Source: Prorocentrum cordatum
Lineage: Eukaryota; Sar; Dinophyceae; Prorocentrales; Prorocentraceae
Reading direction: 5' to 3'
Assembly: GCA_963575745.1 (NCBI GenBank)
Contig: CAUYUJ010016693.1
Coordinates: 882,982 to 946,981, forward strand
Length of the DNA: 64,000 nucleotides
Below are positions 44,876-61,710 of the stretch, piece after piece (the first letter of the stretch is position 1; every line of letters starts with the position of its first letter). A program made the position numbers and the translations under genes. Under the pieces are notes generated by a model that saw nothing but the letters and a program-made list of their open reading frames with translations, did no database searches and had not been told where the DNA came from.

Positions 44876-45161
44876 AAGTCGAAAACAGGCTGGTAAGCTT
44901 AGGTATGTGTTACGCCTTAGGCGTTGCCATATCCCAGGCTTTGGTTCATATCGCATGAGCAAGAGAGCGAGACGAAGCATGGGATCTGGAGTATAGAGTA
45001 AGATGGGCATCGTCAATGGAAAGGATGTTTTCCGATCTCAGATGCAAGTAGTGCGCCTCGGTGAGGCACAGTCACATATCATGCCGGGCCCGGCTTGAGC
45101 CAGGCACGGCAGCGGTACATGCTCGATTTATACCTCGCCTTTAACCTTCTCCGTTTAAAGT
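44876..45161 (-). repeat. 3' LTR
   Basis: It matches 61425-61710 base for base in length. In sense it starts ACTTTAAACGGAGAAGG and ends CCTGTTTTCGACTT. It lacks the usual TG...CA ends. The sense sequence just upstream (45162-45180) is pyrimidine-rich, where a polypurine tract would be expected. Confidence 0.95.
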
Positions 45162-45266
45162 CGGAGGGGGAGGAGACGAGCAGGTACCGCACTTCTACAT
45201 TATGCGGAAAAAACAGTGCTAAGCAGCAGCGGCTGCCTACAAGGAAAGGGCGCGCGAGTAGCCTCG

Positions 45267-48200
45267 CTACCGGCGAGTTTCCTCGCTACTAAAGCGCACC
45301 TGCCCGCGGGTTTCCCCGCTGGCTCGGGAGGCAGGGCCGTCCTGAGACGACCTGCCCGCCCTATACGGCGTATGTTTCTTCAGCTCGTGCTTGAAGGATT
45401 GCTGGCCGGCCATTACTTGTAGGAGCAACGCGCGGTCAATGCTACCTTTGGTATGACCATCGGCAGTCATATCCCGCGTGTCACACCATTGGACGCTTTC
45501 CACGATTCCACGTTCCATCATCTGGCGAATCCAGCTGATGTGCCCAAGCAGAGTACACTCTGTGGGCTTCTTCAGATCCTTGCTAGACAAAGATTTGAAG
45601 ACAGACTCGGCATCAATAGTCAGAGTGACTTTGATACATAGACCACCCATTTCCAATATGTTCTTCAACTGTGTGGGGGTCAATGGTCCCGAGTGTAGCT
45701 CGTGGAGCGTTACAATGGTCGGGTAGCAGTCTTCCAAGTTGTGGGCTGCTGCCAGTGTTTCCGCAGAGTAGCTCGAACGCACTTGCAGTCGATGAGACTT
45801 GCAGTATGCGTCCACCAGGTGCACGACGGGTTTCCCCGCTTGCGTGTGGCCACGCCTCAGCAGGTTAGCCCCGCGGATACCGTAGCCTTTGACTTCGTCG
45901 TCTTCATCTCCGTTGAGACGACGATAGCCAGAATCGCTATGCAGGTCGACTTCTCCTGTTGGAGTCATAGCATGATACACGATCTTCTTCGGGCCTGCCT
46001 GCAATTTTCTGGTAACCGCGTTTAGTCGTCGTACCTGGATGTTTGTCGGTTCTTGGATACGTTGTAGTGAGACAACATAGACCATTAGCCATACCTGCGT
46101 GATCAACGCATAGGCTAGAGCGCCACGAAGACTGACGAACATATCAGAAATTGTCTTCGTCGCCTTGCTTTCAGGATCAGCTCCTGTGAGTTCTGGATGT
46201 GTGATAGGACGAAGCTGTTTGATGTATTCGTCCTGGTCGAGAGTGACGCTCCCATCATCGGTCTTGTTGTACCGAACAGCACAGTTCGTGTATGTGTGCT
46301 TGTTCAGTTTGCACTTCCCAAACGTATCTTCAACACACTTGACATACTTGTCGATAGCCTCTTCCTTCCCAGTCATATTGATGTCATCAACGTGCTTGGC
46401 TGTCAAGAGGTTTGGGCTCATCTCGAACTCTTCGTCGTATGAAGTAGGTTGTAGCCCAAAGCTCCTAGTGATGGACCTGAGTTTCAGCGAGAATGCCCTG
46501 GGAGCATCCTTCGTGCCCGTCCCCGGTTTCAGACACCGGAGACAATGCTTTGATTCGTCATATGACTCAAAGCCTGGCAGTGTGCGAAGGACAGCTGCTG
46601 ATCCAGGTGGTAGTGTGAAACACACCACACGTTCTTTCTCGCCCGTTGCCGCGGCGAGCTCGCCATAGGTCAGTCCCTTCAAGAAAGCCATGTTGATGTC
46701 CAGGGAAGCGATGATCCAAGCTTTGTTGCATGCAGCAGAACTTGCGAGCAGTCTCTGGCTTGACCTCCTTGCCGTGCCAGAGAAGGTTTCGACATCAAAG
46801 GCTTCGAGGTCCATGAAGCCACGGAGTACCAAGCGTAACCGGATCGTCCTTTCCATTTCGCCCTTTTCGTTCTTGACAAACTTCCATTTGTATACGTAGC
46901 GTGACGTCATGATGTTAGACGCCTTGCTTAAGTCAGTCATCTGGAAGCATTTGTTGTCAAGCCAAGTCTTCAGCTCTGTGTAGAGGGCTTTGGAAACTTT
47001 GACCGGATTTGCTTGGATGTCGGCCTTCGTGAGTAGATCGTCTTCCTTGACGACCACGGCACGTTTGGAGGCAGCGCTAACGTATACTCGCATAGTTGTG
47101 ACGCTGCTGTCATCCAACAGTCGGTGTTGCTGCTCGGACAGGACGACTTTGGACATGTCTGCAGTGAAGCAGAGCTCGATGTACTTCCCGTGCTCATCGG
47201 AGTCCAGATCATATTTGCTATCCGGTTCCGTGGAGCATAAAGGAACGTAGTAAGAAGTGTCCATGTCGTATCCTGGCGGGTGACCCCGCTCCGGCAAGTG
47301 GCCTTGCACATCTTCACAGGTCGTAGAGACTAACACACACTGTGTGTCTGTCATGTATGTAGGAACTGTATGCATGACTTCCTCTGTGTCAGCTTCAAGG
47401 AGTGTTCTGTCATCCATCAGTTCAGCATACCACGACTTCAAGACAAAAGCATCCAGATCTTCTTCTGTTTCCTCTATGATGGTCGGGAGCCGACCATCGT
47501 TGTCCGTAGGAGGCTCCTCAGGAGCAGCTGCTGGAGGTGATTCGCTTGGTGGTGGACCATCAGCGAGTTCCTCAAACTTAGTGAGGTCTTGGTCAAACCC
47601 AGCAGACGGCTTCCTGGATTTAAGACACTGGATGATGCGTGAGTGTGTAGATCCTGTGATGTCATAGATGTTCAAGGCAGTGCCATCAGCTTCATAGTAA
47701 TGAAACCCAGGGGTCACATCGTTATCATAGTGCACTAGTGTACAGCTGTCTGCATAGGGTGCGGCAGGCAGCTTCGTCAGGCTCTTGGCGAGTCGTACAG
47801 CAACAACGTTTTCAATACGAAAGTAGTTGCGTATGAGGTACTGAAGAGCCAAGTGCACCTTAGGTGAAAGTCGGCTCGCAGCAGTCATCTGCAGCCGACC
47901 CTGTTTCGTTGGTAGATATCCGAAAGTCATGGCGGGTTTCCCCGCTGGCAGACCGGCAATAAAGGCCAATACTGTTCGAAGGGCCATATTGTCCGATCCT
48001 ATCTCGCGGACCATAAGTGCTTCGATGTACAGTGTGTGTCGTGTGTCAGGATACTGTACTCGTACTTCGCGATTGCCGACCTTCACGATGACCTGGCCTC
48101 GGTCAGGTTCGTTGCGGATGACCGGGTATGGACCACTCCATCCACCCCAGTCGTCTTTCGTGGTGGTCGGGCGATGATAGTCCACGAGATCTCCCTCTTT

Positions 48201-51200
48201 GTAGTGAAATTCACCCGTAGCAGTAGTCTTCGTACGGAGAGCCCTGTTCGTCTTGGCAACCGCAGTGGCCTGCGTGATTGCCTCCAGACTAACCCTCCTG
48301 ATTGTTTCCTCCCTTGAGTGATCTGATGATTCAGTGGGCTGATCATGATCCAAGACAGGGAAATCAGGAAGCATAGCTGGTTGTCTGCCATACAGCGCAT
48401 TGTACGGAGACACTTCATTGTAGAAGGTAAATGCGTTGCTGGCAAACAAGGCTTCATGTAAGAGACGAGTGAAATTGAGAGGAATATTTAATCTATTCAA
48501 TTCTTCTCCCATCACGTGTAAGAGGTGTCGCAGGATGCCGTTCCTAGCTTCGATAGTTGTAGCGTGTTGGCCACGCGCTCGAATACGAAGCTCTGTTCCC
48601 TTAGCCTTAAGGATGGCCTTTGCTGTATCATTATTCAGTGCTCCTTCCCCATCGGAGTATAAGATTTTAGCAGGGCCATGCTGCATCCAAGTCGTATGAT
48701 AGGCATCGAGAACAGTATGCATGGCTTTATCAGGAATCTCTGTGCCAGCTGCCCAGCGAATACAACGGTCGATGATGTGAAAAACAATATGTTCCTGTTT
48801 ATAAAAGAAAAGATCACATTCGACTTCCTCGTTGAAACGTCCTGGCAGTGACACAGAAGGCATCACCGTGTTGCCTGGTTTATCCCAGGCTCGACATTCT
48901 CTACACGAGTCACAAATGCCTTTGATCAGACTCAAACGGGTTTCACCCAGACCAACCTTGGTTAGAATCATCCGCATTTTTGGCTCCTTAGCATGATACC
49001 ATCTCAGGTGGAGTTTGCGGAGTTCTCGCTGCACTACAGCTGGGTCGAAGCTGCGCAGGTTTTGGAGGCTGAGCTGAACGTCGAAGCGAGTCCAATCAGG
49101 GAGCCTGGGCCTTGGCCTCGGCTCTGCTTGAGGCTGCGGCGGTGGTGGAGGATCTCCTCCCTCCATGCGTCCGCGCCTTGCTGCAACTTGTGGCAGTCTA
49201 CGGTGATCGTCAGAACTGCCAGCACCACTGTTGCCACCAGTAGCCCCGTCAGCTCTGGTGATGTCATGGCTGCTGGCGCCTGCGGTTGGGTCGCCCTCAC
49301 CAGGCCGTGGCGGCCTAGGCGCGCGTATGCGCGCTCTCGCGGCCGGCGCCGCTTTTGCGGCTGGCGCCGCTTCTGCGGCCGGAGCCGCTTCCGCGGCTGG
49401 CGCCGCAGGGGCGGCTTGTCCCGCCGGGCGCGGCTGGCCAAAGTTATCTGGCAGCTTCCATTTTTCGGCGAATCTGCATTGGCCAGATATCTTGGTGTGG
49501 TGAGGATTGCTCTTCTGATATTCCTTCTTACAACTTGGACAGTCCCAGTAATACGGTTCAACATCATACCACCGACACATCTTCGGATCCCTACTGTGCT
49601 TTGGTGATTGCTTGTAGTTGTTGTCCACACAGCCAGGGCACCCAAGACCACCAGGTGGTGGTCGACAGATTTCTCCGTTTGGGTGTCTCCGGATTGTTGG
49701 GTCGTCCAAGTCGTAGCCAGCACTGTTTGTTACGAACGCATAGCTGCGTTCACGATTCGCGAATGGATCGCGACCGTAAGCAAACAGGTCTTTGGCGATT
49801 TGCACCGCATCAACGATCAATGACTGCATTCTGTAGGTATACTGTGCCGCCCTTGCTAGCTCTTTGTTACAAGCATTGGCGTGCACATGATTTCCTGGAC
49901 AACGCTTGCCTCTGAAAGGTGCCAACAACTCTTCTTTATTTGCCATTATCTGTGTTGGCTTGCGGATGTATTGTCCAAATGAATCTTTGAGACCAGTCGT
50001 GCACTGATCAATGATTGTTTGGCAAGTGACCTTGCGTTGTGCCAGTTCTTTCCATGGCTGGATCTCATCCACCCACGTGCCCATTGGTTGTTCCCTGAGA
50101 AAGAAACGTCTTAGGTCGTCTTGTAATAGAGCAACTGTTCCACAGAACGTGATGTGAGGCAGGTCCTCTTTGTGGTGTTTAAGCCACGTATCATGATTGA
50201 CCTGTGCGTTGAAGTAGGAAGGGAGTCCAGTAGTTCTGCAACTTGGCTGCAGAATCGTGATCTTGACAAAGCAAGTCTTGAGGTAGTGGAGGACTGCTCT
50301 TTGTACTTCCGAGTTTCCGAGGTCAACCATAGATATCTTGTCAAGGTTTCCGCCTGACGAGAGTCCCCTCTTGAAGGCTAATATGGATATACCACCCTTG
50401 CCCCCACATAATTCAAGCATGTCCACTTGATTGTTTCTGCCGTAGCATAATGACTGGACTATCGAGAAGACATCAGCATGTGAGTCAGCGGGTTGCCCCG
50501 CCGGTAACATCATGAAGATGTCCTCTGATTCGCTGTCCGAGTCCGAGTCGTCAAGAGGAACGTCGTTGAAATATGTGGAGCAGTCAAGCCCTTTGAGGTC
50601 CTCTCCACAGTCGTCGTTACCGTCTTCCACTTTCTTCGGGACTTTCTTCGGTTTGATGCCGGCTTCTTTGTCAGCTTTCTGCTTTTCTTTCTGTTTTATC
50701 CTGGCATCAGTGGGCAACGCAGTTTCCGCGGAGAGATCCGCTGCGGAGGAATCCGCTGTAAAATCAGGAAATGGCGGAATTTCAGGAAGGTTGTTGGTGG
50801 GTCGCGTTTGGCAACGCTCAATCGAAGGGGGAGGAGATCGATCGTCATCGACGATCGTCACACGCTTTGGGCGTGGCCTTCGCGACTCACCATTGCCATG
50901 AAGAACTGGAGCCGGAGGCTCCCAGTATAGCCGAGTACTGATGTTTGTAACCCCATCAGGTAATGGAGCTACATAATTGTACCCAGTTGGCTGATCCTGG
51001 ATTCTAATGTCTTGAACGATCTTGTTCGTGTCCAGGTCGGTCGTGACCCTACGAACCACATGGTCCCATTGAGGGCCCTTCTGTGGACATTGAACGTAGT
51101 GTCTGACCTTTTTGTCAACGCGTGTACACACACTGAGGTGTACCGCACTCCGCTCATTCCTGATCATGTTGGCTTTATCGAGTTGATCAAGGAAGCGTGC

Positions 51201-51665
51201 AATAATAATAGCCAAAGTTTTATACCGAAACTCGGCACGTTGCTGATCTTGGCCATACCAATCCAAATCATGCTCCCTGTGTGATCCACAAGTACATTTC
51301 CATAAGTTTATCGGTATATGAGGACAAGATGTAGCAACTTGTATATAAGAACCACTGGGATGTTTACTGGATCGGTCAAACTTAATACCGAAATGACAGA
51401 GTCTGATTCGTATAACGCTTAGCTTCAAATCTTCGATAACATCTTTGATCGGACCCTGTTTCCAGAAATACCCGGGTGGCCCCAGGATAACTATCTGCAT
51501 TCTCAGAGCACGCGCTTTGATCAGGAGATTTTGTATACGTTGATAATGTGGTCCCGCCCTCTTTCCTGGAGTACGCACGTACCAATCAGAGGGTGTGGCC
51601 ACCCACAACATATTGTAGTCTCCTGCCAACAAATTTCCCAAATACTGTGTTCCAGTTGAAGTCAT
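45267..51665 (-). CDS. Pol polyprotein: methyltransferase-like domain, integrase, reverse transcriptase, RNase H (2132 aa from first Met; frame open from 51866)
   Basis: Domains in order, numbered from Met 51665. A conserved N-terminal block (GPPGYFWKQGPIKDVIEDLK, about 60-80). A Rossmann-like block VDMLELCGGKGGISILAF (about 410-430) with PSC near 474 and EQP near 525, resembling a degenerate C5-methyltransferase. A Cys-rich zinc block (GCPGCVDN, CPSCKKEY, 660-710). The GAG-pre-integrase HHCC (HLRWYHA, CDSCREC, 885-930). The integrase triad in VECDLFF (about 950), LYSDGEGAL (1003) and TIEARNG (1036). The RVT_2 reverse transcriptase with SLDINMAFLKG (1658) and HVDD in place of YVDD (1757). RNase H with DLHSDSG (1907), SYSAETLAA and DAESVF, and the copia end motif DMTADGHTKG. 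No stop or frameshift occurs in 6.4 kb. It very probably makes cDNA and integrates it. Confidence 0.95.
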   Translation of the reverse strand: MTSTGTQYLGNLLAGDYNMLWVATPSDWYVRTPGKRAGPHYQRIQNLLIKARALRMQIVILGPPGYFWKQGPIKDVIEDLKLSVIRIRLCHFGIKFDRSSKHPSGSYIQVATSCPHIPINLWKCTCGSHREHDLDWYGQDQQRAEFRYKTLAIIIARFLDQLDKANMIRNERSAVHLSVCTRVDKKVRHYVQCPQKGPQWDHVVRRVTTDLDTNKIVQDIRIQDQPTGYNYVAPLPDGVTNISTRLYWEPPAPVLHGNGESRRPRPKRVTIVDDDRSPPPSIERCQTRPTNNLPEIPPFPDFTADSSAADLSAETALPTDARIKQKEKQKADKEAGIKPKKVPKKVEDGNDDCGEDLKGLDCSTYFNDVPLDDSDSDSESEDIFMMLPAGQPADSHADVFSIVQSLCYGRNNQVDMLELCGGKGGISILAFKRGLSSGGNLDKISMVDLGNSEVQRAVLHYLKTCFVKITILQPSCRTTGLPSYFNAQVNHDTWLKHHKEDLPHITFCGTVALLQDDLRRFFLREQPMGTWVDEIQPWKELAQRKVTCQTIIDQCTTGLKDSFGQYIRKPTQIMANKEELLAPFRGKRCPGNHVHANACNKELARAAQYTYRMQSLIVDAVQIAKDLFAYGRDPFANRERSYAFVTNSAGYDLDDPTIRRHPNGEICRPPPGGLGCPGCVDNNYKQSPKHSRDPKMCRWYDVEPYYWDCPSCKKEYQKSNPHHTKISGQCRFAEKWKLPDNFGQPRPAGQAAPAAPAAEAAPAAEAAPAAKAAPAARARIRAPRPPRPGEGDPTAGASSHDITRADGATGGNSGAGSSDDHRRLPQVAARRGRMEGGDPPPPPQPQAEPRPRPRLPDWTRFDVQLSLQNLRSFDPAVVQRELRKLHLRWYHAKEPKMRMILTKVGLGETRLSLIKGICDSCRECRAWDKPGNTVMPSVSLPGRFNEEVECDLFFYKQEHIVFHIIDRCIRWAAGTEIPDKAMHTVLDAYHTTWMQHGPAKILYSDGEGALNNDTAKAILKAKGTELRIRARGQHATTIEARNGILRHLLHVMGEELNRLNIPLNFTRLLHEALFASNAFTFYNEVSPYNALYGRQPAMLPDFPVLDHDQPTESSDHSREETIRRVSLEAITQATAVAKTNRALRTKTTATGEFHYKEGDLVDYHRPTTTKDDWGGWSGPYPVIRNEPDRGQVIVKVGNREVRVQYPDTRHTLYIEALMVREIGSDNMALRTVLAFIAGLPAGKPAMTFGYLPTKQGRLQMTAASRLSPKVHLALQYLIRNYFRIENVVAVRLAKSLTKLPAAPYADSCTLVHYDNDVTPGFHYYEADGTALNIYDITGSTHSRIIQCLKSRKPSAGFDQDLTKFEELADGPPPSESPPAAAPEEPPTDNDGRLPTIIEETEEDLDAFVLKSWYAELMDDRTLLEADTEEVMHTVPTYMTDTQCVLVSTTCEDVQGHLPERGHPPGYDMDTSYYVPLCSTEPDSKYDLDSDEHGKYIELCFTADMSKVVLSEQQHRLLDDSSVTTMRVYVSAASKRAVVVKEDDLLTKADIQANPVKVSKALYTELKTWLDNKCFQMTDLSKASNIMTSRYVYKWKFVKNEKGEMERTIRLRLVLRGFMDLEAFDVETFSGTARRSSQRLLASSAACNKAWIIASLDINMAFLKGLTYGELAAATGEKERVVCFTLPPGSAAVLRTLPGFESYDESKHCLRCLKPGTGTKDAPRAFSLKLRSITRSFGLQPTSYDEEFEMSPNLLTAKHVDDINMTGKEEAIDKYVKCVEDTFGKCKLNKHTYTNCAVRYNKTDDGSVTLDQDEYIKQLRPITHPELTGADPESKATKTISDMFVSLRGALAYALITQVWLMVYVVSLQRIQEPTNIQVRRLNAVTRKLQAGPKKIVYHAMTPTGEVDLHSDSGYRRLNGDEDDEVKGYGIRGANLLRRGHTQAGKPVVHLVDAYCKSHRLQVRSSYSAETLAAAHNLEDCYPTIVTLHELHSGPLTPTQLKNILEMGGLCIKVTLTIDAESVFKSLSSKDLKKPTECTLLGHISWIRQMMERGIVESVQWCDTRDMTADGHTKGSIDRALLLQVMAGQQSFKHELKKHTPYRAGRSSQDGPASRASGETRGQVRFSSEETRR

Positions 51666-51831
51666 TACCTCATTATGGGTAATCCGGTCGCATATATATC
51701 CACGGGTTCGGAGTTCAGCGCAAGCTGTGCGAATATCTTCGATGACGAGACATTTTGAATGATATTTTTCTTCTCGGGCCTCAGCGCGGCCAACGTATGT
51801 CGCGAGGAGGCCGGTATTCGGCTTCTCTTCG

Positions 51832-51869
51832 CAAGCGAGCGCCGCCGGCGCGCCCGCCTGCCCCCGTCA
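51832..51869 (-). promoter_or_regulatory. predicted stop-codon readthrough signal between protease and Pol
   Basis: In sense the sequence is ATG CCC CTC TGA CGG GGG. Then an 11-bp stem CAGGCGGGCGC pairs with GCGCTCGCTTG (two G-U pairs) around a 7-nt loop GCCGGCG, starting six bases after the TGA. UGA-CGG plus a nearby 3' stem is a known readthrough context of some plant and animal RNA viruses. Protease and Pol are in the same frame and the frame stays open from the TGA to the first Met of Pol (51665) with protein-like sequence (ALACEEKPNTGLLATYVGRA). Confidence 0.7.
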
Positions 51870-53098
51870 GAGGGGCATGCTGTTAGCGGATGGCTCCGCA
51901 GGAGTCACTGGTGCGGCTACGCTCACAGTCTCCACGCGGGTTGGCCCCGCAGAGTCCGACGAACCTCCGCCCGTGCAGCTTGGTGGTGGTGGCGGTGTCG
52001 CGGGTGACCCCGCTTGGTTCTCAGGCGTCCACTTATTCACCGCCTCCTGGACTGCCCAGAATATCTTAGACTTCAGGGCATCCTTCATGTGTGGCCAGGT
52101 CCCTTCAGGACACTGTTGGCCCTCCCACCAGCTGTTCAGCGTCCTGTCCACGATCGCACGGGTCGTGTCTTCCAGGAGCTGCTTGTCGAGATACGGCTCG
52201 ACAATGTACGCATCAGTCGTAACGGTCAGGGACTGTCCCATTGCGGGTTGCCCCGCTGTGGTCTCGGCGGGTGGCCCCGCACTAACCCCAGCGGGTGACC
52301 CCGCATTGACGGAGTCCTCGTCGTTCTCCGTCTCGGTGTAGCCATCACGACTACTGCGGATTGTAATGGTGTTCGTGACCGTCTGGCTTTTAGCCCCGTC
52401 ATACAACCCGCATGGAATGGCTAGATGTCCTGAGGGGGTTTTCTTCGCCCTCAGGACCTTGGCGCCCTTCCCCAGCTTAAGAGTATAATCTCCGCTGGGG
52501 AAGATAACCTTCTGGAAGCCTGGCTTCAGCACGATGATTGCGTCACGTGCCTCCATGGCGCCCAGGCCCCAGATGGCTGGGAGGTTTGCACCTGAGCCCT
52601 CTGCGATGTTGGAAGCATATTCCTCGATGCGGGGGCTTGCCTCATTGGCATATTGCACCCCGATCTTGAAGTTGCCCATTTTCCGACAGATCGCAGCACC
52701 CTCACCGACACCGTTGATGTAGAGGGTTTTGCTCAGTGTGCATATGGCCGGTCTGTGATTGTACCTGGCCATAGCCTCCTGGAAGGTTCGTGCTGTATTA
52801 GCTCCGATGATGTTCACGTTGGAGCCAATGTCTAGCATGAACGATATGCAGGGCATTCCGTCTTCGTCGGGGAAGAATGTCCCTGTCCGCGCCGCCAGAG
52901 CCATCGTACCATGGTCATCAGGGTGGTACGTAATCTGTGAACCGAGCATGCCTTTCAGTAGGCGTTGTTCCAGCACCCACTGGCTCATTGTTAGCTCGGT
53001 GCACCATATTTGCTCATATTGGCGGCGCTCCTCCACGGTAATTGGTTCCTGTTCGAGAACCCAATAATTCGCAGAGAGTGTGGAGGTCCACTCACCTC
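51867..53098 (-). CDS. retropepsin-like aspartic protease region
   Basis: Starting at GEWTSTLSANYW, the frame carries LDIGSNVNIIG (about 52838-52806), which corresponds to the D-S/T-G active-site loop of retroviral-type aspartic proteases with Ile at the middle position. IWGLGAMEARDAIIVL follows in the place of the second conserved Gly-Leu segment. Upstream MSQWVLEQRLLKGMLGSQIT and the downstream helical block (LNSWWEGQQCPEGTWPHMKD) are unassigned. AGSPA, AGPPA and AGQPA hairpin-encoded linkers are abundant near the C-terminus. It ends at a TGA (51869-51867) that lies in the same frame as Pol and is followed by CGG and a stable hairpin, so a readthrough fusion to Pol is likely. An aspartic protease would process the polyprotein. 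Confidence 0.75.
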
Positions 53099-54450
53099 CT
53101 GGCGGAAAAAAAAATAAGATAAACAAAAAAAAAAAAAAAAGAAAAAAAAAAAAAACAAAAAAAAAAAAAAAGAAAAGAAAGAAGAAAAAAAAAAAAAAAA
53201 AAAAAGAAAAAGAAAAATAAAAAAAAGACAAGAAAAATAAAAAAATAAAAAAAACTAAAATAAAAGGAAAAACAAAAAAAATAAAAAAAAAAAAAATAAA
53301 AAAAGAAAAAAGGAAAAAAAAAATAAAAAAAAAAAAAACAAAAAAAAAAAAAAGGGAAAAAAAATAAAAGAAAAACAAGAAAAAAAAAAATAAAAAAAAA
53401 AGCGTAAAACGTGACGTCACGTGTGTAGGTCAGCCCTTCCGTGTTGATCATGAAAGTATTGTGGAATTGGGCTGCCTCCGCGCTCTCAGCACTGGCCCGG
53501 CTTCTAGCGCTTACCGGACTCTCTACACGTGAGGTTCTGGATCCGCCTCCGCTCCTGCCACTCCGCCTAATATTGGCCTCCATTGCCCTCAGGAATCCCG
53601 GATTCGGAGGTCCATTTGCGGGTGACCCCGCTTTGGCGGCAGGAGCCGCTTCGGCGGGTGGCCCCGCTGTGGCGGCGGGAGTCGCTTCGGCGGGTAACCC
53701 CGCTGCTGGGGGCCCCTGTGCTCGAAGCGTAGGCAGGATCGGCATCTGGATGCCTTGCTCTGGCGCTGCGGCTCGAGCCTCTAGCGCCTCCACTGCCTCC
53801 CGCAGCCGACGCAGTTCCCGAGCATCCACCACGTATCTTTCCTGCTGGCGCGCCTGTTCCGACTCAGCGTCGCGCTGTCCAGCATACGGAAAGTGTGCTG
53901 TGATTATGCCCGGCCCACGACATACAGCGCAGGGTGCCTCGTTTGGCGCACCTGGTCGCTGATTGCGGACGTGCTGCTGTGCAACACGAACCCAGCATAT
54001 ATCGTGGAAGAAGTGCCCGCACGCCAGTCTCCACACCGTGGTGCCCATCTCGTAGGGGTCCATACAGATTGGGCACTGTGTGAAGTTGTAGTCTGAAATG
54101 ACTGGAGTAGGCACGTCAGGGCGTGTCCGAGCCTGACGCTCGAAGGTAGATTCACCCTCCCGATATGGCGTCGGTGGTGGCAGTCTATCTGTCTGTTCAG
54201 CGGGTGGCCCCGCGCCTGCGGGTGTCCCCGCTTGGTTATCACGCTCGATCCTTCTCTGGATCGCGCGCTGTTGGCGCAGCCTAGCGTTGTCCCGAGCCTG
54301 CTGCCTAGATGCCAGTATCGCTTGTTGCGTGTTGTGCACGTCGCGAATGTAATCTGGCATGCTGCCCAGAGCGGCTGGCACCGCGAGACCAGCTGGCTGA
54401 ACTACGGTCTCGGGGTCCGTCGGCGTGGGCATGTAGGCGTAGTGCGGCAT
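53092..54450 (-). CDS. RING-H2 protein, ORF4 (exon ends near 53421)
   Basis: A coiled region (QQARDNARLRQQRAIQRRIE) precedes a RING-H2 finger. The ligands are C126 and C129 (CPIC), then C144, H146, H149 and C152 (LACGHFFHDIC), then C174 and C177 (CAVC). Such fingers recruit ubiquitin-conjugating enzymes; E3 activity is inferred from the ligand pattern. A second coiled coil follows (ELRRLREAVEALEARA), then AGPPA/AGSPA linkers. The frame nominally continues as poly-Phe through a T-rich tract to 53092, but I expect the exon to end at 53421 with LTYT and to splice in frame to the protease exon. The upstream TAG at 54481-54483 is the only stop separating it from ORF3. Confidence 0.8.
   Translation of the reverse strand: MPHYAYMPTPTDPETVVQPAGLAVPAALGSMPDYIRDVHNTQQAILASRQQARDNARLRQQRAIQRRIERDNQAGTPAGAGPPAEQTDRLPPPTPYREGESTFERQARTRPDVPTPVISDYNFTQCPICMDPYEMGTTVWRLACGHFFHDICWVRVAQQHVRNQRPGAPNEAPCAVCRGPGIITAHFPYAGQRDAESEQARQQERYVVDARELRRLREAVEALEARAAAPEQGIQMPILPTLRAQGPPAAGLPAEATPAATAGPPAEAAPAAKAGSPANGPPNPGFLRAMEANIRRSGRSGGGSRTSRVESPVSARSRASAESAEAAQFHNTFMINTEGLTYTRDVTFYAFFFIFFFLVFLLFFFPFFFFCFFFFYFFFPFFFFYFFFFYFFCFSFYFSFFYFFIFLVFFLFFFFFFFFFFFLLSFLFFFFCFFFFSFFFFFVYLIFFSARR
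53099..53420 (-). other. predicted 322-bp intron with a T-rich tract
   Basis: In sense the stretch begins GTGACGTCACG (donor at 53420) and is then about 300 nt of T with single A, C or G. It ends TTTTTTTTTCCGCCAG (acceptor AG at 53100-53099). Splicing joins LTYT through a split CGA codon to GEWTSTLSANYW, exactly restoring the protease frame, which otherwise differs from the RING frame. The donor overlaps the palindrome TGACGTCA. A spliced intron inside a retrotransposon is unusual. The alternatives are a slippery poly-U tract, a later insertion or an assembly artefact of a homopolymer-rich region. Confidence 0.6.
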
Positions 54451-54480
54451 AGACTGCGCATCGACTGCTCGTGTATACTG

Positions 54481-56775
54481 CTAACGAAACATCTCATTGG
54501 CCAGATTTCGAGTGTATTCGTTTGCAGGTGGCCCCGCAATCATAGGAGTGTTATTCACCTGCGCGTAGTACTCCGGGTACATCGGCGCATCCATGGCCGG
54601 TGCCTCTGCTGGTCCATGATTATCCCATCCATATATCGGGTGTGATGCTATCCCTGGAATAAATACCTGTCGATATGGATTCGTGGGATCAGCATTTGGA
54701 GCGTCGTCAGAAGTCCAGCTCCAGAGAGGCCGAAAGTCGCCATGGTTCGTAACATCTATGTTGCGGTTCCGCAACAGGCTGGGCACTCTATCAGCTTGTT
54801 GCTGCAAAAAAGTAGCCTGTGCTCTCAAATTGGCTGCCCGACGTTCGTAGTCTGTACCTTGCTGTCCGTCAGCGGGTGGCCCCGCGTGTGCGGATGACTC
54901 CGCAGGCGTTCGCTCGGCGGGTGCCCCCGCAGCCACCCCTCCTTCACTACCCCTCGGAGTGCCAAAGGGAGTGGTCGCCTGGAGTGCTGCTGCGAGCGCC
55001 GGATTTCCGCGAATCGCCTGGAGTCGTTGCCACAGGCTGTTCTCGCTCGTTTCAGACGGCGGAGTCCGAAACGGCGAGCCACCATCTGAGCCGCCCATAG
55101 GAGCAAACCTCGCACCTCCAGCTTGCTGTGGAGGGCGTTGTGGTTGTGGTCCTAGGACGCCTGGTGGCCCCGCAGGAGGGCGCAGGTTCCTCTGCTGTGC
55201 GTCTTGGATGCCTGCATGCACCGCCCACGGGTCAGCACGGTATAGCTGATCGGTCAGTCCAGAGACGTCGGCTGATGTCAAATGGCTGTTGAGAGCTTGG
55301 ACCCAGGACTGCTGGTCCGGCCTCCAAGGAGATGCTACCGTCGCCACCGGTGTGACTACTTGCTGCCATGAACCGTCCGAGGTGCCTACCGCGGGTGTCC
55401 CCGCTCCTGCGGGTGGCCCCGCCTCCGGCATGACCTCGTCCTCCTGGGCATTCATCATGAGGACTGTCTGTGTGTCGTACGGTCGTGGAGCAACATCTTG
55501 CTCGGTCATGACCAAATTGAATGGACGACCGTCCGTCTTAGCCCAGCCCTTGAGGTACATGGCATGATCTTCCATTACCGCCACAGTTCTGTCACACATT
55601 TTAAATGGCAGATAGTCATCAGTGCGAATCCTGTCCGCGGGTTGGCCCCGCCTCCGCGTCTTGTCATAAAACAGCGGATTGGTCCAGGCTTCGCCGACCC
55701 GATATTTCGCAATGCTCACTATCTGGAGGATATGATCGGGCGGTATACGTCCGTCGTGGCCCCGTGTCATGACTATGTCTTTTGCTGATCTCCATAGAGA
55801 GAAGCCACTGGACAGCATCTTGTTGATGCTGCAGAATATGAGCACCTCCGAGTCAGGACGGATGCCCGATTGTATCCTCGGGTCGCCCGGGAGGTAGGGG
55901 CAGCCATGCACAAATTGGCGCCCCCCCTTCCTCTTCGGGTTGTCCTGTGCGAGGCATGAAAGGCCATTAGCAAGAATGTCCTTGACATACTCCCACTGTG
56001 TCCCGTGGATGAAATATACTGGGTCGTCTGGTTCTTTCATCCATGTTGTGATCGGCTTGCACAGCGACTCGGGACAGTGGATGCCTGGACTGCTGTGGCC
56101 GTTCGTGGCTCTGATGAAGTACTGTGGCCTGCGTGCCGTTGGTCGAAACCTGGGAGGCAGCAGCATGCTGTCATCAACGCGCTTCATCTGGAGCCTGCCC
56201 TTCTGCATGCCGTGATTGTCAATCATCTCACAGCAGTTTAGCAGCACCCAATACACGTATGACGTGTGGGGCCTGCCCTTGATCAGCACCTCGTGCATTT
56301 CACGATAGCCTTTCCACTGATCATTTTCAGTCCAGTTTGTCAGCAGATCGTCAACGACAACCCAGCCATCGTATGGATCAAAGGTGCTGACCTTTTCGAA
56401 GTATCGGTTATGTTTGTCCTTATAGTATGGACTGTGGCGTAGAGCCGTTGAAAACCACATCGACACCTTGGTCATCTGCTCTTTTCTCGGCAAGGTTGGA
56501 TCCATGCCGTTCTGTGTCATGACCTTCAGGAGTGCTTCTTTATGCTGCGCAGCGCGTAGTGGCGGCCTGTCTCGCAGCATGTTTCCCACTTTCTGCTGTT
56601 CGCGCTCCCAGTCGTTGTGACACTTGAAATTACGACGAACCGGACAATTAATGACTTCATATCGGTCCGTGTCGTCTGGAGTGACTCGTGGGTTGATGTG
56701 CTGCCTCGGGCCTTTGTCTACAATGCCTTGCCAATACAACTTGCATTCCAAAGGAATGACCCTCAGAACAGACAT
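54481..56775 (-). CDS. KptA/Tpt1-like RNA 2'-phosphotransferase, ORF3 (764 aa)
   Basis: Residues about 105-352 form a complete KptA/Tpt1 (PTS_2-RNA) domain. It has LRHS with Arg113-His114, GWVVVDDLL (137-145), IRATNGHS with Arg222 (221-228), FIHGT (255-259, NAD+-binding HGT) and GIRPDSEVLI with Arg306 (304-313). SGFSLWRS and IVMTRGHDGRIPP follow. These are the Arg-His-Arg-Arg residues known to be essential in yeast and bacterial Tpt1. That enzyme moves the 2'-phosphate of spliced tRNA (or another 2'-phospho RNA end) to NAD+. Residues 360-764 are Pro/Ala/Gln-rich with GC-hairpin-encoded AGPPA motifs and a final Trp/Pro-rich region. It is in the same frame as ORF2 and ORF4, separated by TAA and TAG. 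The role in the element is unknown. RNA end repair, primer-tRNA processing or ADP-ribosyl transfer are all possible inferences. Confidence 0.88.
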   Translation of the reverse strand: MSVLRVIPLECKLYWQGIVDKGPRQHINPRVTPDDTDRYEVINCPVRRNFKCHNDWEREQQKVGNMLRDRPPLRAAQHKEALLKVMTQNGMDPTLPRKEQMTKVSMWFSTALRHSPYYKDKHNRYFEKVSTFDPYDGWVVVDDLLTNWTENDQWKGYREMHEVLIKGRPHTSYVYWVLLNCCEMIDNHGMQKGRLQMKRVDDSMLLPPRFRPTARRPQYFIRATNGHSSPGIHCPESLCKPITTWMKEPDDPVYFIHGTQWEYVKDILANGLSCLAQDNPKRKGGRQFVHGCPYLPGDPRIQSGIRPDSEVLIFCSINKMLSSGFSLWRSAKDIVMTRGHDGRIPPDHILQIVSIAKYRVGEAWTNPLFYDKTRRRGQPADRIRTDDYLPFKMCDRTVAVMEDHAMYLKGWAKTDGRPFNLVMTEQDVAPRPYDTQTVLMMNAQEDEVMPEAGPPAGAGTPAVGTSDGSWQQVVTPVATVASPWRPDQQSWVQALNSHLTSADVSGLTDQLYRADPWAVHAGIQDAQQRNLRPPAGPPGVLGPQPQRPPQQAGGARFAPMGGSDGGSPFRTPPSETSENSLWQRLQAIRGNPALAAALQATTPFGTPRGSEGGVAAGAPAERTPAESSAHAGPPADGQQGTDYERRAANLRAQATFLQQQADRVPSLLRNRNIDVTNHGDFRPLWSWTSDDAPNADPTNPYRQVFIPGIASHPIYGWDNHGPAEAPAMDAPMYPEYYAQVNNTPMIAGPPANEYTRNLANEMFR

Positions 56776-56796
56776 TATTGGCTGCCCGCTTGCGGG

Positions 56797-59688
56797 TTAC
56801 CCCGCTAATGCAGCCGGCGGCGCCTTGACGGGTGGCCCCGCTAATGCAGCTGGCGCCGCTTTAATGGGTGGCCCTGCAGAACCTGCGGCTGACGAGGCAG
56901 CTCCAGCGGATGACTCCGCGCCAGGGTGCGGGTGACCTTGGTCAGCCACTGCATCATCGGCTAGTTTCTGTCGGTCGCCAAATTCTTTGAGGACTTTGTA
57001 GCGTTCTTCTCTTGAGAGAGTGCCTTCTGCGGGTGTCCCCGCTGCTGCAGCTGGCGCCGCTTTAGCGGGTGGCCCCGCAGAGCCTGCGGCTGCCGAGGCA
57101 GCTCCAGCGGATGACCCCGCACCAGGGTGCGGGTGATCTTGGTCAGCCCGCGCATCGTCGGCTAGTTTCTGTCGGTCGTCAAATTCTTTGAGGGCTCTGA
57201 AGCGTTCTTCCCGTGAGAGAGCGCCTTCTGCGGGTGCCCCCGCTGCTGCAGCTGGCGCCGCTTTAACGGGTGGCCCCGCAGAGCCCTTGTCCTCCTTACC
57301 TTTGGCGACTGCTTCTGCCCGCACCGACCTCATCCCAGCCTCGGGCTTCGGTTGTGCTTTCATTCGTGCCGAGCCTGGTCGTGGTGCAAGGCGCGGCTGA
57401 TGCAGAGTTGGAGTCCAGTCACCTCGGAAGGCTGCCTTAGGCTGGTCGCGAACTTCGTCCTTGACATCGCCTTGGGCAGCCGGTGGCATCGGGGTTGATG
57501 GTCCAGCAAAAGCCTTCCTCCTCTCCGTCGCGGACGGGCCGGTAGGCTCTCCCTGCTCAGGGTCGTCCGTCTTGGCGATCCCTCTGGCCTTCGCCCGCCC
57601 CTGTGTGCCTTCGGGGCTCTTGGACGGGTGCCTTTTCGCAGGAGTCGGTGAAGACGAGGAGTCGGCTTTAGGTCTTGGCGGTGGTCTGCTGCTCTTGCCT
57701 GGTCGTGGACCAGGAGGGTCTCTAGGAGGGCCTTCTGGCTGGCCATGATCATGGATGACCTGCCTCATCTGGTCGATGTCGGCAGTACCCTTTATGGCCA
57801 GCTTGTACTTGCCATTCTCATGGCGGTGGAGTACCCTCGTGCAGAACCACTTCTGCGCCGAAGAGCTGTAGTACCAGCAGGCGCTTCCGTCAGGGAATGG
57901 ATTCTCTGAACCGTCTTCCGCCGCCCACTCTTCATTTAGCTCAGTGCGGTCAGTGCCGGCGGCGGACCCGGCAGCAGAGGCAACGTCTATCCACTCGTCC
58001 GCAGATCCAGCGGCTGGTGCTGCTTCTGCGGGTGACCCCGCTTCCTTGCTGGATTCGGCGGGTGACCCCGCTTCCTTACTGGATTCTGCGGGTGACCCCG
58101 CTTCCTTACTGGATTCTGCGGGTGACCCCGCTTCCTTATGGAATCGGCGGTTCCATTCCTTGAGGCGGTGGTCATTGGGAAGCTTTGCCCAATTTTCCTT
58201 GACGGTGTTGGCCACCTCTTCGGTCATAGGGACGCGATCGGCCTCTGTGATACGCTTTCCTCCTCCAGGAACCTCTTTGTTCGGATCATGGACGTTGCCC
58301 GCGTCGTCTCCATGAGACCAATTCCACGGGGTCTCTCCATGGTGAGGGCTCCTGGAGGGGCGGTCCATCGGACACCTGCGCATGTGGCCTTTAAAGGGAT
58401 CACACTGACATACTTGCTTTCTGTACGTTTTGCGGTCAGTGATGATCTCCTGCTTCTTCGCCCTTTTGTCCCAGGCCTCTGGCGTCTTGGTCTTGCCGCC
58501 CTTGGTACGGATTATCGCGCCAGTCTCGTCCCTTTTGGTACAGTATTCCTTAGAATACCAGTGCCGAAGAGTATCCATAGAGTAGCCGGGGTACCATTGG
58601 ATGTACCAATCCGGCACCTGCTGAGCAGATACTCCAACGGAGTGCTCAGTGCTGTATGGATAGCCCGATTCATCATGCGTAGGGCGTCTAGGAGCTGAGC
58701 GGCCCCTTCCGCGGGCTGGCCCCGCTGACGCACTACCACGTGTCACTGGCCTTTGATCGTCATGCTCTGAGTCTCGGGGAGGCGACGGTCGCCTGTCCCT
58801 CTTGGCGTAACGCATGTCCTCCGAGTCCTCTGAGCTGTCCTGGACCATGAACACGTTTTGATAAGGGCTTCTGAAGTATCCGATGTCATTTAACTGCTCC
58901 ATCGAGAGGTCGTTAATGTTCATTTGATCACAACCTTGCATGAATACATCCATAGACCAAGCGGGTGGCCCCGCTGTTGTGTCTAGCATCTCTTCGGCGG
59001 GTGACCCCGCTAGAGCTTGGAGTGCTGTAAGCATCTGAGATGCTGACATGTTCGAATCCAAGTATGGACGTAGACGGGCAACTCCTGGGTGCGACAGCAG
59101 TTCGTTCATCGTCATCTGCTGCTGTGCTGGCGCACTCAAGAGTCGGATTGCTTCTGAAACCTGCTCTTGGAGCATGTCGTTATAATCTTCTTCGGATTCT
59201 TCGGAGTCGGAATACGCGGGATGGCCCCGCACTTCGTCATCGGCGTCTCCCATCTCCGAGCCAGCCCACGACGGATTTGGCAGCAACGGCATGCCAATCA
59301 CTTGTGGGGCCAGCGCGGCGGTGAGTTCTTCCGCTGTTGCCGGGACAGTCTCGGCTTCGGAGACCTCGTCACCGGCGGGTGGCCCCGCTGGAAGACCGAA
59401 CCAAGCATTGTACGCAATCTCATCGACCTCGTCCCAGCCGTGGAACTCGTCGAAGAGGGTCACTGCGTAGTCTTCCAGGGCCACAGTTGCTTCAGCATAG
59501 CGGGCCATCACGTAATACGTGGAGGGGCCCGCAGCGGGAGCCGCTTCTGGATTGACGTAAAACTCGTAGTCAATGTAATATATGTCATCCATAAAAGAAT
59601 TTTGAGCCAAGTGTACGGATCCCTTTCCTTTCCCCTTCGGGCATTGATCGCGCAAATGCTCTGTGCTACCGCATGTATGACACTTCAT
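56797..59688 (-). CDS. zinc-knuckle protein, ORF2 (963 aa)
   Basis: It begins MKCHTCGSTEHLRDQC, a CX2CX4HX4C zinc knuckle (C3, C6, H11, C16) as found at the end of retroviral Gag and here used for RNA binding by inference. The rest is largely disordered. It has an acidic region (SDSEESEEDYND), a Trp/Tyr segment VPDWYIQWYPGYSMDTLRHW and a cysteine cluster CQCDPFKGHMRRC. It also has four KEAGSPAESS repeats made by the GC mini-hairpin, and a folded-looking patch CWYYSSSAQKWFCTRVLHRH. An ~80-residue tandem duplication lies near the C-terminus (LSREERFRALKEF and LSREERYKVLKEF). It ends with TAA inside a GC mini-hairpin, and the same frame continues into ORF3 after that codon. Confidence 0.85.
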   Translation of the reverse strand: MKCHTCGSTEHLRDQCPKGKGKGSVHLAQNSFMDDIYYIDYEFYVNPEAAPAAGPSTYYVMARYAEATVALEDYAVTLFDEFHGWDEVDEIAYNAWFGLPAGPPAGDEVSEAETVPATAEELTAALAPQVIGMPLLPNPSWAGSEMGDADDEVRGHPAYSDSEESEEDYNDMLQEQVSEAIRLLSAPAQQQMTMNELLSHPGVARLRPYLDSNMSASQMLTALQALAGSPAEEMLDTTAGPPAWSMDVFMQGCDQMNINDLSMEQLNDIGYFRSPYQNVFMVQDSSEDSEDMRYAKRDRRPSPPRDSEHDDQRPVTRGSASAGPARGRGRSAPRRPTHDESGYPYSTEHSVGVSAQQVPDWYIQWYPGYSMDTLRHWYSKEYCTKRDETGAIIRTKGGKTKTPEAWDKRAKKQEIITDRKTYRKQVCQCDPFKGHMRRCPMDRPSRSPHHGETPWNWSHGDDAGNVHDPNKEVPGGGKRITEADRVPMTEEVANTVKENWAKLPNDHRLKEWNRRFHKEAGSPAESSKEAGSPAESSKEAGSPAESSKEAGSPAEAAPAAGSADEWIDVASAAGSAAGTDRTELNEEWAAEDGSENPFPDGSACWYYSSSAQKWFCTRVLHRHENGKYKLAIKGTADIDQMRQVIHDHGQPEGPPRDPPGPRPGKSSRPPPRPKADSSSSPTPAKRHPSKSPEGTQGRAKARGIAKTDDPEQGEPTGPSATERRKAFAGPSTPMPPAAQGDVKDEVRDQPKAAFRGDWTPTLHQPRLAPRPGSARMKAQPKPEAGMRSVRAEAVAKGKEDKGSAGPPVKAAPAAAAGAPAEGALSREERFRALKEFDDRQKLADDARADQDHPHPGAGSSAGAASAAAGSAGPPAKAAPAAAAGTPAEGTLSREERYKVLKEFGDRQKLADDAVADQGHPHPGAESSAGAASSAAGSAGPPIKAAPAALAGPPVKAPPAALAG

Positions 59689-61565
59689 AGTATTACAGAA
59701 GCGTCCCTAGGGTTGCCCCTCCGCCCCTTTCCCTTACCGGAGGTCCGCCTGTGACCCCGACCTTTGCCTCCGATAAGAACTTCTTCAAAAGCCATATCAG
59801 TTAAGGACGTGAGGAAAGCAGTAATACCCCTACCATGCATACGGCGTCTGCGACCCCCTTTGCCACGACCCTTTCCAAATTGTTTGAAATGTCGGCGTAC
59901 TGCACGTCTCACCTTTCTGACTGGTTTCTTCATAAAGCGCCTCCAACGGCGTTTTGATTTGCGATAAGCCATAAAGGCGGCTTCCGCCCTTTGCTGTTCA
60001 GAAAGGTGAGAGTCGTCCGCTGGATAGTCATTACCAGCAGAGACTATTCCATTGTGCTCATCGTCAGATGAAGTATCTGTGTCAGTGCCAGATTCAAACG
60101 GTGAGGGTGGCTGAGACCATTGAGCGGATAACTCCGCTTGGCCCCAGAGGGTTGTGCCCGAGGGCGGGCTTGCAGTGTAGGCGGCGCCTGGCGAGTAGTT
60201 CGACCAGGCGTTTGCCTCAGCTGCCTCTGCCGATACCTGGCCGGTCTGCCCTAGAAGGGCAGTGGCCTCGTTGGGCATATCGGCTGGGTCAGCCCAGGGA
60301 TTTTGCTCGCCAGGACCAGCGGGTGACCCCGCAGTCGTGGCGTAGACACCTGCATGTGAGTGGTGCCCTGTGAAGATGCCCGCTATGTTGCCAGGAGAGC
60401 GCTCGGCAACATGTCCGTAGTTCCTCATCCTGGTCAGCAGCCTGTCATAGTCTGCTTGTGTTCGGGGCATCTGATGATTTAAGGGCTCAAGCAGGTGTTG
60501 GGCTCGTGACGCGCCAACGCCTAACGCTCTGAAGAGAATCAGCGTTAGGATCTGAAAGTTGGGGATGACAAAGCCAACAGAGTTAGCCTCGTCACGGGCC
60601 ATCTCGAATCGAGCTAATACTGAGTCGATTCGCTCGCCCCTTTCGGCGCGGAAGTCGATAAGGGCCGTGCCAGAGTTGAGCTGGCGCTCATCTTCCAGAT
60701 TTTCAAATTTGGTGCTCAGTAAGTACAGTATGTAGGTTACTGCATCCGTTGGCTGTCCATTGACAGTTACACCATAATTGATGATCTGGGAGGGGACCTG
60801 CATGTCGATACGACGAGCCAGACCTTGAAGGCCTCGTTGTAGTGCTGCAGCTTGTTGTGGTGGTGTCATATTGCCACTCGTTACGTTTAACCATGCATGT
60901 ACTTCGCGAACGTATTCGCGAAAAGGCGTAGTACCGGCAGGGTCCCATGAAGGGCCGGTAGTACGCGTGTCGTCCATCCCCTGCCGCATGTATCCCACAG
61001 CACATCCCATTATTACCCACAGAATGCCGAATATGGTTATCTTGATCCAATGCATGTGCATTTCGGCTTCGGTGATTGGTTTAGGCTGTGGTTTGTCAGG
61101 CTCTGGCGTAGTAGCCGTGAGGCGCCTGACTGGCACTGGATGCAGGTGGCCCCGCTGCGGGTAGCCCCGCAGGGTGACCACGTTCTCGATCGAGTTGCCG
61201 ATTGGCATCTGGTGGAAGTCGGGAGTGAAGTAGCGCAGTGAAGTAGGAGAGAGCGTCTCGCGTTCGCGGGTTGCCCCGCTAGCTCGATCGCGGACTGGCT
61301 CCGCTCCTCGCAGAGCCGGCGCAACATGGTATTCCACCGTAGTAGTAGTCCACCAAGTTGAGCCGTGGATTACAGGAATCAGAGCGAGAGCCAGCCACAC
61401 GAGAGTGTAGCCAGCTCCGCTACCAAGTCGAAAACAAGCTGGTAAGCTTAGGTATACAGTCCGCCTTAGGCGCTTCCATCTCCCAGGCTTAGGCTCATAG
61501 CGCATGAGCAAGAGAGCGAGACGAAGCATGGGATCTGGAGTATAGAGTAGGATGGGCATCGTCAA
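59685..61565 (-). CDS. Gag-like structural protein (626 aa)
   Basis: The frame opens with an ATG inside the 5' LTR. About 47 residues are LTR-encoded, and it continues through the primer-binding site. Two hydrophobic segments follow (YTLVWLALALIPVIHG near residue 53 and IKITIFGILWVIMGCAVGYM near 180), then a helical capsid-like region. That region has TPFREYVREVHAWLNVTSGN, YLLSTKFENLEDERQL and VLARFEMARDEANSVGF, followed by RTQADYDRLLTRMRNYGHVA at about residues 215-395. This matches the UBN2-like capsid layout of copia Gag. The C-terminus is strongly basic (RRFMKKPVRKVRRAVRRHFK), suited to RNA binding. Its TGA overlaps the ATG of ORF2 (ATGA), so ORF2 could be reached by termination-reinitiation. 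Whether translation really starts in the LTR is uncertain; internal Met codons exist. Confidence 0.8.
   Translation of the reverse strand: MTMPILLYTPDPMLRLALLLMRYEPKPGRWKRLRRTVYLSLPACFRLGSGAGYTLVWLALALIPVIHGSTWWTTTTVEYHVAPALRGAEPVRDRASGATRERETLSPTSLRYFTPDFHQMPIGNSIENVVTLRGYPQRGHLHPVPVRRLTATTPEPDKPQPKPITEAEMHMHWIKITIFGILWVIMGCAVGYMRQGMDDTRTTGPSWDPAGTTPFREYVREVHAWLNVTSGNMTPPQQAAALQRGLQGLARRIDMQVPSQIINYGVTVNGQPTDAVTYILYLLSTKFENLEDERQLNSGTALIDFRAERGERIDSVLARFEMARDEANSVGFVIPNFQILTLILFRALGVGASRAQHLLEPLNHQMPRTQADYDRLLTRMRNYGHVAERSPGNIAGIFTGHHSHAGVYATTAGSPAGPGEQNPWADPADMPNEATALLGQTGQVSAEAAEANAWSNYSPGAAYTASPPSGTTLWGQAELSAQWSQPPSPFESGTDTDTSSDDEHNGIVSAGNDYPADDSHLSEQQRAEAAFMAYRKSKRRWRRFMKKPVRKVRRAVRRHFKQFGKGRGKGGRRRRMHGRGITAFLTSLTDMAFEEVLIGGKGRGHRRTSGKGKGRRGNPRDASVIL
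61410..61425 (-). promoter_or_regulatory. primer-binding site, initiator-tRNA-Met type
   Basis: Immediately after the 5' LTR the sense strand reads TGGTAGCGGAGCTGG. This resembles the TGGTAGCAGAG / TGGTATCAGAG primer-binding sites complementary to the 3' end of initiator methionine tRNA used by copia elements. Its position at the LTR edge confirms the element's orientation. Confidence 0.75.
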
Positions 61566-61710
61566 TGGAAAGGATGTTTTCCGATCTCAGATGCAAGTAG
61601 TGCGCCTCGGTGAGGCACAGTCACATATTAGGCCGGGCCCGGCTTGAGCCAGGCACGGCAGCGGTACATGCTCGATTTATACCTCGCCTTTAACCTTCTC
61701 CGTTTAAAGT
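61425..61710 (-). repeat. 5' LTR
   Basis: In sense it carries a TATA-like GGTATAAATC about 27-36 bp from its start and GCCTGGCTCAAG at about 57-68, and it contains the first codons of the Gag frame. It is followed directly by the primer-binding site. Confidence 0.95.
61674..61683 (-). promoter_or_regulatory. TATA-like box in the 5' LTR
   Basis: GGTATAAATC in the sense strand, also present in the 3' LTR at 45125-45134. Dinoflagellate promoters are thought often to use TTTT-type boxes, so its role is an inference. Confidence 0.4.

Follow-up and report, generated by a model that had tools for sequence, protein, structure and literature searches.

A copia-type retrotransposon of the dinoflagellate Prorocentrum cordatum carries a Tpt1/KptA domain held under purifying selection

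The window analyzed here is a stretch of 64,000 nucleotides from Prorocentrum cordatum (assembly GCA_963575745.1, contig CAUYUJ010016693.1, positions 882,982 to 946,981 of the forward strand). The P. cordatum genome amounts to 4.13 Gb, and a size of about 4.15 Gbp is listed for the species (PMC10449503; statements taken from cited papers, here and below, refer to the excerpts of those papers that were available). On its minus strand, to which all features described here belong, the window holds a copia element of ~16.8 kb between two long terminal repeats (LTRs), and one open reading frame (ORF) of this element, ORF3, contains a Tpt1/KptA domain of the RNA 2'-phosphotransferase family. The LTRs are direct repeats of 286 bp at 61425-61710 (5' in the element sense) and 44876-45161 (3'). 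They are identical at 271 of 286 positions, with 12 of the 15 differences falling within the first 80 alignment columns.

In the element sense the first open frame is Gag (capsid; 59685-61586, 633 codons), recognized from the ORF list and by its match to the Gag of a second element family, family B, described below. ORF2 (56797-59706) opens with a CCHC zinc knuckle (E = 0.0029, below the Pfam cut-off) and continues as a linker containing short hairpin units. ORF3 (54481-56796; 771 codons including its TAG stop) is followed by a frame with a C3HC4 RING finger (53092-54480), which is common to family B, and by an aspartic protease frame with the motif LDIGSNVNII (51867-53429). The protease frame ends at an in-frame TGA (51867-51869) directly before Pol (45267-51866). 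Pol contains a copia-type reverse transcriptase (RVT_2, E = 2.4e-10, residues 1638-1897) with an HVDD motif, downstream of an integrase HHCC zinc motif that begins at residue 953; Pfam reported no integrase domain in Pol, where only the HHCC pattern marks it. The LTRs and RVT_2 bear out the original prediction that the carrier is an LTR retrotransposon, and the ORF order and Pfam matches place the domain between Gag with its zinc knuckle and the protease, as had been proposed. The nearest proteins to the query region are P. cordatum gene models, with 87-96% identity over 25-38% of its length.

The Tpt1 domain occupies ORF3 residues 111-346 (55759-56466). This segment matches PF01885 over profile positions 6-177 of 177 with E = 1.2e-15 and 58.5 bits, against a curated cut-off of 26 bits, and lies inside the interval 55700-56470 to which the family had been assigned from the letters alone. 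A phmmer search of Protein Data Bank (PDB) chains returned entries for tRNA 2'-phosphotransferase 1 (7yw3 at 4.9e-12 and 7yw2 at 7.9e-11, with 7yw4 at 0.057). The prokaryote NCBIfam models gave at most 15 bits on ORF3. Because the best chains are tRNA 2'-phosphotransferase 1 and the prokaryote models score so low, we take the domain to be of the eukaryotic type. A chance or low-complexity match was considered and ruled out by the PF01885, phmmer, and family B matches.

The motifs of the family are found in ORF3 as LRHS (119-122), GWVVVDDLL (144), IRATNGHS (228), HGT (264), RQFVHG (293), GIRPDS (311), and WRSA (335). The catalytic tetrad of CthTpt1, which recognizes the 2'- and 3'-phosphates, consists of Arg18, His19, Arg68, and Arg121 (PMC6333775), and these residues correspond to R120, H121, R229, and R293 of ORF3. 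All four are present, in agreement with the claim that the Arg-His-Arg-Arg set is intact. The fourth member is R293 of GGRQFVHG, which aligns with ERHYVHLS of Escherichia coli KptA, and not the arginine of GIRPDS; the latter, R313, is an additional arginine of the NAD site and is likewise present in the window copy, as is HGT at 264-266. Compared with the Tpt1/KptA/TRPT1 proteins gathered in PF01885, the element domain has the near-full-length match, the tetrad, HGT, GWV..DLL, and the LPGD..SGxR stretch as in TRPT1 chains. It differs from them in being embedded in a retroelement polyprotein, in bearing two insertions, and in having Asn for the Gln of IRAxQGHS in sequences of the window type, here called family A.

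Further copies of ORF3 were sought in the same genome. The element is present in high copy number: the search gave 28,208 first-look candidates, 58 of which were scored, the window copy included. These 58 are 97-100% identical; 57 of them span residues 1-771 and one spans 4-771, and all except one are without an internal stop. A first sample for pN/pS consisted of the first 20 copies by protein score, a choice biased towards few amino acid changes. Here and below, a shared variant is one present in at least two copies, and only codons with a single-base difference were counted. In the Tpt1 domain of these 20 copies the shared variants comprised 15 synonymous and 1 non-synonymous changes, and the singletons 3 and 8 (pN/pS 0.72). 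The neighboring RING segment in the same copies gave shared variants of 4 and 1. Constraint is similar in the two segments, so Tpt1 looks like one more functional component of the element.

A second sample was chosen through the reverse transcriptase domain alone, for which 147 of 10,022 candidates were scored, all with 100% identity over 260 amino acids. The first 20 places were taken, 19 of which lay on contigs long enough, and the window copy was added. Seventeen of the 19 span 997-1020 of 1020 nucleotides, one spans 719, and one 434. In this sample the shared variants of the Tpt1 domain divide into 53 synonymous and 23 non-synonymous ones (pN/pS 0.12) and the singletons into 11 and 15 (pN/pS 0.37), and no stop occurs. 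The non-synonymous fraction is 37%, compared with a neutral expectation of 79% (p = 1.3e-19 with the 102 variants treated as independent, a value that is too optimistic if copies recombine). No variant is listed at residues 119-122 (LRHS), and in the NAD lobe (residues 254-365) non-synonymous variants are listed only at 267, 332, and 339. The Tpt1 domain is thus held under purifying selection, and its retention by selection, originally a conjecture, is borne out by this deficit across copies. We also considered an isolated host gene lying in or beside the element and rejected it: the whole of ORF3 recurs at the 58 scored places, it is in frame with the flanking ORFs in the copies compared, and the order is repeated in family B.

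In the window copy, stop codons break the frame both before and after Tpt1. A TAA before ORF3 (56797-56799) and a TAG after it (54481-54483) are peculiar to this copy within the set of 20; the 19 others have TCA (17) or CCA (2) before ORF3 and TTG (all 19) after it. In another copy (L053/L054) Gag through protease forms a single open frame of 3074 amino acids, including Tpt1 and RING. The statement that the enzyme is kept intact therefore holds for the Tpt1 domain and for many other copies, but not for the polyprotein of the window copy, which is broken on either side of the domain. The in-frame TGA directly before Pol is found in both families, as TGA CGG in the window and L053 and as TGA AGA in L051 and L056. 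From this we infer that Pol is made by stop-codon readthrough or by some other route past the stop, and the protease/Pol TGA of both families is a candidate site of programmed readthrough.

A PF01885 search of the genome gave 2,877 candidates, of which 150 were scored, all above the cut-off. The first seven (L021-L027) are canonical-like; one has a stop (L023), L025 and L026 are identical in translation, and L027 resembles a degraded L025. These seven are probably host genes or copies of host genes, reflecting either a cellular expansion of Tpt1 in P. cordatum or a duplicated assembly. The remaining 143 matches score 71-92 bits. That host genes had been taken for element copies was considered and rejected, as the search sets L021-L027 apart from the rest. 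Several P. cordatum gene models at NCBI (P0001, P0002, P0003, and P0005) include a piece of the Tpt1 N-lobe. In P0001-P0003, otherwise unrelated proteins, there is a common joint from part of ORF2 (HWYSK) to VMERFGMD, which would reflect either recurrent exonization or an annotation artifact.

Family B is defined by the four matches read (L028-L031) and by the sequence context of two sites, L051/L052 (around L030) and L055/L056 (around C20220). At L051/L052 the order is Gag, CCHC (E = 0.0012, below the cut-off), Tpt1, RING, protease, TGA, and Pol, with Tpt1 at E = 2.4e-25 and 90.1 bits; RVT_2 of L056 scores 31.4 bits against a cut-off of 31.6. Identity between A and B is 45% in Gag (521 amino acids), 26% in the Tpt1 ORF (740 amino acids, 3e-30), 33% in RING, 40% in the protease, and 53-63% in Pol. 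The tetrad is kept in both families despite the 26% identity. Two insertions in the domain are common to A and B and, as judged by eye, are found neither in the host Tpt1-like sequences nor in E. coli KptA. In a tree of 18 rows, A groups with relatives from outside P. cordatum (100/98). Bootstrap support for a single group of all element rows is 30% (200 trees), and E. coli KptA falls among these rows on a long branch. Because A and B are collinear and share the insertions, separate captures of the domain by the two families are disfavored.

A profile search for relatives outside P. cordatum found 55 proteins at E <= 1, of which 47 are labeled Pyramimonas sp. AAC.1, two AAC.2, and six come from ENA/JGI contigs. 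The label of Pyramimonas, a green alga, may denote the true host or a contaminating dinoflagellate. Five of the proteins (P0011, P0014, P0018, P0036, and P0060) extend, as judged by eye, into a region like that of ORF3 past the domain. The stretch C-terminal to Tpt1 (residues 366-440; 55477-55701) is itself partly conserved outside, with W371 and P425 each kept in 15 of 16 rows. In the alignment of 56 rows, the window residue is matched at an average frequency of 0.44 across 237 columns. Many rows are fragments, some decayed-looking, and the counts refer to the rows covering each site: R229 is kept in 27/30, R293 in 39/44, G265 in 35/37, T266 in 28/38, and R313 in 38/43. The tetrad arginines R229 and R293 are thus conserved well above average. 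Too few rows cover R120 and H121 for a count, and P0013 shows LRH. Free substitution of the catalytic residues among relatives, which was looked for, is mostly not seen. Viral contigs and phage records, searched with Tpt1 as the query, yielded no relatives.

Several other features of the element were recorded. A 14-nucleotide hairpin unit (5-bp stem GCGGG/CCCGC, loop GNNA) has 37 matches with at most one mismatch at 45306-61279, where 1.3 are expected by chance; all 37 lie inside the element on its sense strand, and none is in the Tpt1 domain. Of 31 exact units, 27 (counted by hand) keep the frame of their ORF and encode A-G-x-P-A. One unit (56792-56805) has in its loop the TAA that ends ORF2 in the window copy, and two stretches of family B contain 7 units in 19.8 kb, on the sense strand only. 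A T-rich tract of ~0.3 kb (53092-53410), into which the RING frame runs, lies at the RING/protease junction and is missing at the matching junction of copy L053. The RING finger, on the Gag side downstream of Tpt1 in both families, might act as a ubiquitin ligase for the element. Pfam gave no significant match for some 900 Pol residues that precede the integrase zinc motif and fall in a stretch with 53% identity between A and B; further acquired domains are possible there. Directly after the 5' LTR, where a primer-binding site would be expected, is TGGTAGCGGAGC, which may resemble the 3' terminus of initiator tRNA-Met. Immediately ahead of the 3' LTR (45150-45230) the element sense strand is pyrimidine-rich, the opposite of the usual polypurine tract. 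The flanks at the LTR ends (..TTAGCA and CTCCTAA..) show no matching target-site duplication; the duplication may have been lost, or the LTR ends may be misplaced.

Our preferred reading is that a copia lineage took a eukaryote-type Tpt1 into the Gag side of its polyprotein and has since maintained it as a functional NAD+-dependent RNA 2'-phosphotransferase that acts in the particle. To this we assign a probability of roughly 0.5. An ancestor of the lineage would have gained a Tpt1 gene within the Gag side. Being translated ahead of the stop between Gag and Pol, Tpt1 would be synthesized, and would enter particles, at Gag stoichiometry and then be freed by the element protease. Inside the particle, before or during reverse transcription, the enzyme would act on RNA, removing the 2'-phosphates left on element RNA or on primer tRNA after cleavage and repair and so keeping the template usable. 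The tie between Tpt1 and reverse transcription is one that we infer.

A number of observations weigh against this reading. Broken domains exist: the reverse transcriptase-chosen copy of 719 nucleotides holds a one-base deletion inside the Tpt1 domain, and stops interrupt 6 of the 143 PF01885 matches outside the canonical-like seven. Trp stands in place of R313 in all four B-type copies that were read. Of 36 outside homologues covering H264, only 22 retain it and 10 have Arg instead; P0007 has RGA in place of HGT, and P0013 has Ile for R293 and Cys for R313. A 2'-phosphate would also not be an absolute block to reverse transcription, since a commercial reverse transcriptase produced cDNA too long to have ended at the 2'-phosphorylated HAC1 junction (PMC6456296). 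A Trl1-type ligase (PF09511, PF08302) was unmatched in the genome, and control genomes likewise gave no match. RtcB is present (2.1e-99), and ligation by RtcB leaves no 2'-phosphate. Should the host truly have no Trl1-type ligase, 2'-phosphates would lack their classical origin, and it would become more likely that ends produced by RNases are repaired or that ends are capped with ADP-ribose. A broader formulation, which we put forward tentatively as somewhat less probable than not, is that a copia lineage packages in Gag its own NAD+-dependent enzyme of RNA repair or end modification in a host that may lack a Trl1-type ligase, and that this enzyme serves an undescribed step of RNA cleavage or end modification in the element cycle or in dinoflagellate defense.

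Other roles for the domain have to be set beside the preferred one. Tpt1 might counter a host defense in which metal-independent RNases nick element RNA or tRNAs, by helping to mend the ends. The KptA domains known from jumbo phages, sawfly nucleopolyhedroviruses, Bodo saltans virus, and a few polyproteins of positive-strand RNA viruses have been discussed in similar terms (PMC9503650), and the element retains its Tpt1 although the host seems to own Tpt1-like genes. However, Pfam found no ligase, kinase, or 2H domain in the six element ORFs scanned, and we regard this role as unlikely. It is less likely again that the domain is an ADP-ribosyltransferase acting on nucleic acids, for example by capping and so protecting the ends of RNA or cDNA, and not a remover of 2'-phosphates. 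Capping of 5'-phosphate ends is an activity of this kind, and changes near the active site (Asn for Gln in IRATNGHS of A, Trp for R313 in B) allow altered chemistry; the phosphate-recognizing tetrad of CthTpt1 (PMC6333775) is nevertheless kept in both A and B.

The N-lobe of Tpt1 is like a winged-helix RNA-binding domain (PMC6333775), and in the element the domain belongs to the Gag side, where it follows a zinc knuckle. The domain could on these grounds serve Gag in a structural or RNA-binding capacity, without catalysis, its active-site residues persisting by descent. The small number of amino acid variants in the NAD lobe and the tetrad common to A, B, and E. coli despite the 26% identity of A and B make this improbable. 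Least probable of all is that the domain is a passenger, a host gene captured once and drifting without benefit. Copies that are broken elsewhere, such as that of the window, and the weakly constrained singletons of the biased sample are what such a passenger would allow, but shared variants are under purifying selection, and the domain occurs in two families and in relatives outside P. cordatum.

Acquired enzymes are known from other mobile replicons. The KptA domains surveyed in PMC9503650, from jumbo phages, Bodo saltans virus, nucleopolyhedroviruses, and picorna-like virus and nidovirus polyproteins, are likewise carried by a mobile or viral replicon, in some RNA viruses within a polyprotein. 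The carriers there are phages, DNA viruses, and RNA viruses, and the available text of that survey does not mention retrotransposons or retroelements. Retrotransposons of dinoflagellates and charophytes that hold a cytosine methyltransferase (PMC5890265) resemble the present element as dinoflagellate retroelements with an acquired enzyme, purifying selection, and many copies. They differ in being LINE and DIRS elements with a DNA methyltransferase, and Symbiodinium Copia elements are described in the excerpt as lacking the DNMT domain. In orchids, Ty3/gypsy elements with an AlkB m6A demethylase (PMC9289625) are a further case of an LTR retrotransposon that acquired an RNA-modifying enzyme, there with AlkB activity shown in vitro. 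In contrast to the P. cordatum element these are Gypsy elements with another enzyme, and the 15 frequent extra domains in 121 angiosperm genomes are of Gypsy-type, not Copia-type, elements. Candida Tca2 (PMC2194720) is similar in that a UGA parts gag from pol in a retrotransposon; in P. cordatum the stop follows the protease, and the opening of the Tca2 abstract makes no mention of Tpt1. Literature searches limited to open-licence PMC papers, judged by title or abstract opening, turned up no description of a retrotransposon bearing Tpt1/KptA.

Tpt1 is widespread, although its deletion has no known effect in E. coli or mouse (PMC6333775). Its retention under selection by a selfish element, across a large family of copies, speaks for the domain aiding the replication of something. 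The element is a natural setting in which to find a substrate of Tpt1 beyond fungal tRNA splicing, and RNA repair would join the enzymes known to be acquired by retrotransposons.

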